A DNA stretch of 64,000 bases from an uncultured Pelagibacteraceae bacterium (lineage in GTDB: Bacteria; Pseudomonadota; Alphaproteobacteria; Pelagibacterales; Pelagibacteraceae): positions 226,525 to 290,524 of the forward strand of contig CACFQR010000001.1 in assembly GCA_902568465.1 (NCBI GenBank), read 5' to 3'. The notes under the pieces are model-generated. The model made no database searches and was not told the DNA's origin. It saw only the letters and a list, made by a program, of their open reading frames with translations. Position numbers and translations under genes: made by a program. This document shows positions 6,382 through 7,583 of the stretch, piece after piece (position 1 is the first letter of the stretch; the number at the start of each line of letters is the position of its first letter).

Positions 6382-7490
6382 TTTTTTATTTCATTATAAG
6401 TTGAGCTGATAAATTCACTTACTGTTTTTAAAAATTCTGGCACATTCAGTAAAAAAGAATCATGACCTTTGTCAGAATTAATTTCTACAAAACTAACATT
6501 TGCACCACAAGCGTTTAAAGCTATAACTATTTCTTTATTTTCGATTGTAGGATAAAGCCAATCAGAGGAGAATGATATTACACAAAATTTTGATTTATTA
6601 TCTTTAAAGGCAAGAGATAAATTATTATTGAACTGTTTTTCCAAATCAAAATAATCCATTGCTCTGGTTATATATAAATAGCTATTTGCATCAAATCTAT
6701 CAACAAAAGTTGCACCCTGATAACGTAAGTAGCTTTCTATTTGAAAATCTGCATCAAAACTAAATTTTAAACTTCCTTTATCTTGTAGTTTTCTTCCAAA
6801 TTTTTCCTCTAATCCTTTTTTGGATAGGTAGGTAATATGAGCGGCCATTCTTGCTACAGCTAAACCTTTATCAGGAGAAGAATTTTCTTTTTTCCAATTT
6901 GGATCAGCCATAATAGCTTGTCGACCCAATTCATTTAGAGCAATATTTTGTGCTGAATGGCTAGCACTACACGCTATTGGAATTGAAGAATATGTTAAGT
7001 TTGGATATAGAGCAGAAAACTGCAAAACTTGCATTCCGCCCATTGAGCCACCTATTATCGAAAGTAATTTTTTAATACCCAAATAATCTAATAAAAATTT
7101 TTGAGCTCGAACCATGTCTCTTATTGTTATTACTGGAAAAGTTGTTCCAAATAATTTACTAGTTTCAGGATTTATTTCCTTGGGGCCATATGAACCCATA
7201 CACCCTCCCAAGACATTTGCACAAATTACAAAATATTTATTGGTATCAATTGCTTTTCCTGGTCCCACAGCAAACGTCCACCAACCTTCTCTTTTAGTTA
7301 TAGGATTAATATTTGTGCAAAATTGATCTCCCGTTAAAGCATGAAAGGCAAGTATGGCATTGTTTTTATCTTTATTTAAAGTCCCGTAGGTTTCGTAAGC
7401 AAGAGGGAAATTTTTAATAATTTTTCCGCAATCAAGTTCGAGAGATTGACTGATAATTAATTTTTTTATATTTTTTAGCTCACTATTCAT
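6378..7490 (-). CDS. metX: Homoserine O-acetyltransferase
   Basis: MetX acylates homoserine, committing it to methionine synthesis by direct sulfhydrylation. The alpha/beta-hydrolase fold is shown by [12 protein letters not shown], the nucleophile elbow [11 protein letters not shown] and the late catalytic histidine in KGHDSFLL. The frame is open upstream of 7490, but I take the ATG at 7488-7490 (MNSELKN, 370 residues). The upstream extension would translate through the intrinsic terminator, and the chosen start lies 17 nt below it. No good Shine-Dalgarno is visible. The gene is preceded by a SAM-II riboswitch and a terminator, so S-adenosylmethionine should repress it. The acyl donor (acetyl- or succinyl-CoA) cannot be decided by eye. 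Confidence 0.95.
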
Positions 7491-7496
7491 AATCAA

Positions 7497-7524
7497 ACAA
7501 AAAAAAAGCCCAGCTAAGCTGGGC
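7497..7524 (-). terminator. Intrinsic terminator in the metX leader
   Basis: Read on the minus strand, GCCCAGC-TTA-GCTGGGC (7508-7524) forms a 7 bp GC-rich hairpin with a short loop. It is followed at once by nine U residues (7499-7507). This is a textbook intrinsic terminator placed between the SAM-II aptamer and the metX ATG, so it fits a transcription attenuator. Its 3' arm contains TAGCTG, the exact complement of CAGCTA in the 3' end of the aptamer, which would allow an alternative antiterminator pairing. Confidence 0.88.
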
Positions 7525-7529
7525 AAAAA

Positions 7530-7583
7530 CCTTTTTTAGCTGTTTTTTTAATGCGCTCGCAATTCAAGTTAAATCAGCGCGCT
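7530..7583 (-). promoter_or_regulatory. SAM-II riboswitch aptamer upstream of metX
   Basis: On the minus strand the segment begins GCGCGCTGATTTAAC, then TTGAATTGCGAGCGC, an A-rich stretch and CAGCTAAAAAAGG. GCGCT pairs with AGCGC to form P1. The loop GATTTAAC and the 3' GCTAAAAAAGG are the conserved pseudoknot elements of the SAM-II (metA motif) family. From memory it is nearly identical to the Sargasso Sea metX SAM-II RNA used for the crystal structure. SAM binding folds the H-type pseudoknot and turns off methionine genes. Here the last aptamer bases are only 5 nt from an intrinsic terminator, which suggests transcriptional control. Confidence 0.93.

Follow-up and report, generated by a model that had tools for sequence, protein, structure and literature searches.

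Among SAM-II riboswitches, an aptamer followed by a terminator is the commonest arrangement predicted for the class (PMC1273637, PMC2258182, PMC9481103). A SAM-II aptamer ahead of metX is known in 'Ca. Pelagibacter ubique' (PMC2704228), and a study from 2016 had entered the metX SAM-II riboswitch among those acting on transcription (PMC5069961). Much of the structural and single-molecule work on SAM-II uses a 52-nt metX aptamer, with hiding of the Shine-Dalgarno (SD) sequence as its premise. The sequence of this crystallised element is printed in PMC8494917; two further articles present it as one of the rare SAM-II switches acting on translation (PMC6061858) and as a case of direct SD occlusion (PMC10907184). 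As far as the accessible portions of these published accounts extend, they make no mention of a downstream terminator or antiterminator. A preliminary description of the DNA analysed here regarded SAM-II as chiefly translational; this fits the crystallised metX case only, whereas surveys predict mostly terminators (PMC2258182, PMC1273637).

Several described systems resemble the locus reported here in part. The alphaproteobacterial metA element (RF00521; S. meliloti metZ) likewise combines a SAM-II aptamer with a terminator before the open reading frame and is predicted to be an OFF switch. At S. meliloti metA, an SD lies within the aptamer and a terminator hairpin separates it from the start codon in use, as in our locus, but an antiterminator was not found there (PMC9373788), whereas one is predicted here. 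The tandem SAM-II/SAM-V arrangement at bhmT of 'Ca. Pelagibacter ubique' also places a terminator after the SAM-II aptamer; our metX locus differs from it in having a single aptamer, no SAM-V and another terminator stem. The crystallised metX element is of the same class, precedes the same gene and comes from the same type of marine source as ours.

The metX leader lies on the minus strand of the 64,000-nucleotide stretch of DNA that we analysed (the window). A predicted promoter at 7615-7587 consists of TTGACA (7615-7610), a 17-nt spacer and TACAAG (7592-7587). The TTGACA-N17-TAnnnn pattern keeps its position across the metX leaders of aptamer-bearing SAR11 genera, and from this position transcription would begin at or near the first base of aptamer stem P1. 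The aptamer, assigned from its Rfam matches, its likeness to the crystallised 52-mer and its conservation in relatives, spans 7582-7530: the minus-strand DNA reads GCGCGCTGATTTAACTTGAATTGCGAGCGC (7582-7553), a spacer, CAGCTAAAAAAGG (7542-7530) and then TTTTT. Within it, P1 is formed by GCGCU and AGCGC (7580-7576 with 7557-7553), L1 is GAUUUAAC, and the 3' strand is CAGCUAAAAAAGG (7542-7530).

Downstream of the aptamer, after a gap of 5 nt, a terminator scan detects an intrinsic terminator at 7524-7499, GCCCAGC-UUA-GCUGGGC (7524-7508) followed by U9 (7507-7499). Its stem has 7 bp, 6 of them GC, and leads into a U-tract; the preliminary description had noted a GC-rich intrinsic terminator and both spacings. 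In the DNA, GCCCAGC-TTA-GCTGGGC and T9 are followed by GTTTGATT and the ATG of metX at 7490, 17 nt from the terminator stem. The controlled gene, metX (7490-6378), encodes a homoserine O-acetyltransferase of 370 aa (NCBIfam PRK00175.1, 491 bits against a cut-off of 331). It is overlapped at its 3' end by metW (6381-5788; TIGR02081, 235 bits, cut-off 189.5), which is presumably co-transcribed. An open frame runs from TTG 7526 through the terminator to ATG 7490, and some relatives have an ATG at the corresponding place, so the hairpin could in principle belong to a longer metX coding region translated from that TTG. We rejected this highly improbable reading because the frame is not conserved: of 48 distinct leaders, only 21 have a start codon in frame further upstream, and in some leaders stops stand there.

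Both SAM-II covariance models match this strand below their gathering cut-offs, RF01726 at 34.0 bits (E 7e-5; cut-off 44) and RF00521 at 25 bits (E 1e-3; cut-off 36). As a consequence, a default Rfam scan misses the aptamer, and at the gathering cut-off there is no match at the metX leader site. The same is true of a SAR11 leader (locus L080) that bears the exact crystallised 52-mer, indicating that for SAR11 members the cut-offs are set too high; the low score is a shortfall of search convention and does not exclude membership. Aligned to the 52-mer, the window copy has the P1 stem, the UGAUUUAA loop, UUGC and the 3' strand AGCUAAA of the crystallised member, and it precedes metX and then metW, a methionine/SAM biosynthesis context. 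From its sequence, then, 7582-7530 is a SAM-II aptamer, as first described, and we infer that it binds SAM. A permissive Rfam scan also returned RprA, PrrF and similar sRNAs at this site; we set these aside as chance matches that merely reflect the terminator.

The aptamer and the terminator overlap through complementary bases. CAGCTA (7542-7537) is the exact complement of TAGCTG (7516-7511), as originally reported, and the match extends to 7 bp, CAGCTAA with TTAGCTG. TAGCTG had been placed in the 3' arm of the terminator, which is right for most of its bases, but U7516 and A7515 are loop bases. The putative antiterminator pairs CAGCUAA (7542-7536, part of the P2 3' strand of the aptamer) and the following GG with UUAGCUG in the terminator loop and 3' arm (7517-7511) and with CC of the 5' arm, the inner pairs being G7531-C7522 and G7530-C7523. 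It thus shares strands with both the terminator and aptamer P2 and is mutually exclusive with them, both by sequence and in folding models in which the aptamer strand was either left free or blocked.

We propose that this SAM-II riboswitch turns metX, and with it metW, off by transcription attenuation, a reading to which we assign a probability of about 0.8. Without SAM, CAGCUAA and GG would pair with UUAGCUG and CC, and this antiterminator would block the terminator hairpin, allowing polymerase to read into metX. With SAM bound, the same strand would be held in the P2 pseudoknot, the terminator would form, and an RNA of about 80 nt would be released. We infer both this direction of control and that the competition is decided during transcription. 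The preliminary description had likewise suggested a transcriptional switch in which SAM frees the terminator, and computation, through sequence comparison and folding models, lends this support: the terminator is kept in five genera together with the complementary strand and its two loop bases, the energies of the two hairpins are near-equal, the same design recurs at bhmT, and it is absent from sister hairpins that lack a U-tract. If correct, the metX switch could be tested in one transcription assay.

The energies of the two structures are close. Their means over 43 distinct leaders are -12.9 kcal/mol for the antiterminator and -11.6 kcal/mol for the terminator; in the window they are -11.6 and -12.2 kcal/mol, respectively, or -13.4 kcal/mol for the terminator with its U tail. 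Only three terminators in the 64 kb pass a strict definition, the other two yielding -3.2 and -2.2 against -11.6, and because these are too few, shuffled hairpins served as the null. Shuffled 7-bp arms of the same composition gave a mean of -4.3 and reached -11.6 in 0.06% of 5000 trials, while random triloops on the real stem reached the observed antiterminator energy in 1.4%. The antiterminator complementarity exceeds chance.

Folding of the growing RNA, a calculation that leaves out the pseudoknot, magnesium, polymerase speed and NusA, points the same way. With the aptamer strand free, the leaders of genome G094, of genus g2 and of bhmT fold into the antiterminator at every length, and with the strand blocked, as a stand-in for SAM, the terminator arises in every folded leader. 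For the window it is the antiterminator that appears first, as the 3' arm emerges, and the terminator is slightly favoured once the stem is complete. Since the finished terminator is slightly the more stable, the ON state can only be kinetic or leaky, and the window switch is expected from these models to be kinetic and to lean to OFF.

A second element in the window's own genome repeats the design with another stem. At L001:1501-1680, a tandem SAM-II (with terminator) and SAM-V precede a bhmT-like gene, which we take from its sequence to be bhmT (RF00521, 34.8 bits; RF01826 SAM-V, 50.8 bits, the latter passing its Rfam cut-off). Its terminator is ACCACCG-CUUUAGC-CGGUGGU followed by U9, and the loop region CGCUUUAGC is the exact complement of GCUAAAGCG in the aptamer. 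The resulting antiterminator of 9 bp plus 2 has an energy of -14.6 kcal/mol compared with -10.0 kcal/mol for the terminator (null 0.002). Elements of the bhmT type also occur in g2 and, before another gene, in g9. In the latter (L204, genome G039), a SAM-II aptamer and the bhmT-type terminator CCACCGCTTTAGCCGGTGG-T9 precede a metF-like ORF that begins MKNELKFSFEFFP.

These observations bear on whether the metX terminator is coupled to SAM at all. A constitutive terminator might limit metX expression or yield a leader sRNA; at S. meliloti metA a terminator was validated for which no riboswitch-driven antiterminator could be predicted (PMC9373788), and in the window the finished terminator is favoured. 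We nevertheless regard an uncoupled terminator as unlikely, given that the antiterminator complement lies far beyond chance, tracks the U-tract and is seen again, on another stem, at bhmT.

The SAR11 arrangement also differs from that in other Alphaproteobacteria. At 14 other alphaproteobacterial loci whose terminator is clear, the bases that follow the aptamer core (GGUCGG type) pair strongly with its 5' arm (-6.6 to -17.5). In SAR11 that pairing amounts to only -2.3 to -6.1, and it is the ligand-binding core itself, GCUAA(A), that is complementary to the loop and 3' arm. Pairing of the ligand-binding core with the loop and 3' arm appears to be new. If the terminator competes for the ligand-contacting GCUAAA, published folding rates should be weighed against the time that polymerase needs to cross the hairpin.

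To compare relatives, we located them by a search with the MetX protein and then compared their leaders; genera are denoted g1, g2 and so on, g1 being the window's own. In g1, g2, g4, g6 and g8, every one of the 42 metX loci has the aptamer and, after it, the same hairpin with a tract of U8-U9 (40 scored automatically, and L147 and L158 by direct reading because the aptamer pattern was too strict for both). Retention of the terminator in relatives had been proposed as a check, and it holds in these five genera. The layout of aptamer and terminator occurs at none of the 42 metX loci of g3, g7, g9 and g12, and in g5 no SAM-II lies ahead of metX. Among the matches listed from a genome-wide scan with the pattern, most are Pelagibacteraceae, with scattered others, many of them Firmicutes MAGs.

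Hairpin positions 9-16, UAGCUGGG, are identical in all 31 distinct leader tails gathered via the MetX protein alone; positions 1, 5 and 7 (5' arm), 8 (loop) and 17 vary. A conservation count over 43 leaders is partly biased, since loci L064-L093 were collected by a pattern that contains the terminator itself. The terminator helix is paired in 100% of cases and shows a compensatory change from GC to AU at the closing pair. Covariation of the CAGCTA/TAGCTG pairing, the other check proposed, is absent: in the antiterminator alignment 89% of cells are paired (18-60% when one strand is slid), and no two-sided change occurs because the core columns are invariant on both sides. Such an invariant core is expected if SAM binding fixes one side. 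Tolerated wobble changes number about five on the 5' side of the terminator and one on the 3' side, and the constancy of the 3' arm is partly to be expected on this basis; G-U wobble rules alone would produce a five-fold excess of changes on the 5' arm, so the asymmetry carries no weight. The invariant loop bases U9 and A10 are a better sign, because the terminator does not need them.

The lack of a visible SD, previously offered as support for transcriptional control, is uninformative. SAR11 genes mostly do without an SD (40 of the 46 long ORFs in the window lack an SD-like motif), and an SD-like AAGG lies inside the aptamer, leaving room for translational control too. This AAGG is 39 nt upstream of ATG 7490, or about 22 nt with the hairpin removed, which is beyond working distance; across the terminator-bearing genera the latter value is 13-34 nt.

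The leaders of g7, g9 and g12 illustrate another arrangement, in which the aptamer is followed by hairpins of other sequence without a U-tract. The alternative pairing between these hairpins and the aptamer strand reaches 0 to -3.9 kcal/mol at best, whereas the hairpins themselves are at -5 to -8 kcal/mol, so complementarity to the aptamer strand goes with the U-tract. In these leaders (L124-L129, L131, L132, L134-L136, L138, L139 and L143) the aptamer ends in an SD-like (A/G)AGG, the hairpin follows at once, and 5-8 nt separate it from the ATG; the stem sequence is replaced between genera yet stays paired. With only 5-8 nt, the hairpin may bring the SD and the start codon together, and we consider these leaders, on sequence grounds, candidates for a bridged SD under SAM-II control.

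A similar bridge could be imagined for the window, with AAGG recruiting the ribosome, the hairpin folding out, SAM hiding the SD and the U-tract incidental. The g7, g9 and g12 leaders, with (A/G)AGG and a U-tract-less hairpin 5-8 nt from the ATG, lend this some plausibility, as does the SAM-II at S. meliloti metA, where the SD in use lies 74 nt before the start with a terminator hairpin in between (PMC9373788). But the remaining gap is about 22 nt in the window and 13-34 nt in the terminator genera, not 5-8 nt; a strict GC stem with U9 is unnecessary for bridging; the GG is lost in two g6 members; and g8 has a separate AAAGGA just before the ATG, downstream of the terminator. We therefore find purely translational control by bridging improbable. 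The g8 motif, seen at L023 (genome G008) directly before the metX ATG and 3' of the terminator, makes SD occlusion by the aptamer unlikely in that genus.

A version in which SAM both triggers termination and, through the pseudoknot, hides the SD in read-through mRNA is a tentative possibility, and its likelihood overlaps that of attenuation because both include termination. Most terminator-bearing leaders keep GG(G), and the two levels of control are combined at S. meliloti metA (PMC9373788) and, within SAR11, at the tandem SAM-II/SAM-V of bhmT (PMC9481103). GG(G), however, also belongs to the P2 strand and to the inner pairs of the antiterminator, so no ribosome need be invoked for its conservation, and most genes in the window do without an SD.

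The attenuator reading extends to the crystallised element. The 52-mer matches the metX leader of SAR11 genome G094 (L080) at 52 of 52 nt, and there it is followed by GATGCCCAGUUUAGCUGGGC-U9-GG-AUG, that is, by the same terminator directly downstream. We take the 52-nt sequence to be the 2QWY construct. In G094 the switch with the exact crystallised aptamer is predicted, from its context in that genome, to be transcriptional; the original element comes from a Sargasso Sea metagenomic read.

The g3 leaders (L028-L035, L164-L183) depart from both arrangements: after the aptamer come G, U7-9 and then a conserved element, CUCACAAUUCA (or CUCUCAAUUCA). At about 10 of 11 positions this element is the complement of UGAAUUGCGAG in the same aptamer and, together with A7-C/G-U7, it yields a long alternative hairpin with an energy of -10 to -13 kcal/mol; no GC hairpin is present. 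The MetX tree places g3 as sister to g1/g6/g8 (0.99) within a clade that also holds g2/g4 (1.0), and g7/g9/g12 lie outside. That the hairpin is nearly identical in the lineages to either side of g3 points to a single gain, followed by loss in g3.

On balance we lean towards a joint reading in which the crystallised 'translational' SAM-II is a natural transcription attenuator and the orthologous metX aptamer has three expression platforms within one family. These would be a terminator/antiterminator in g1, g2, g4, g6 and g8; an SD with a bridging hairpin and no U-tract in g7, g9 and g12; and, in g3, U7-9 with an element complementary to the aptamer and no hairpin. Such platform turnover among SAR11 genera appears to be new. 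SAR11 offers a natural series in which one aptamer carries a changed platform between sister genera, making riboswitch platform evolution directly testable. In g5, a SAM-II aptamer precedes a gene other than metX (L206, genome G019) and is followed by the AT-only hairpin AAAAAAATTATTAATTAATAATTTTTTTT.
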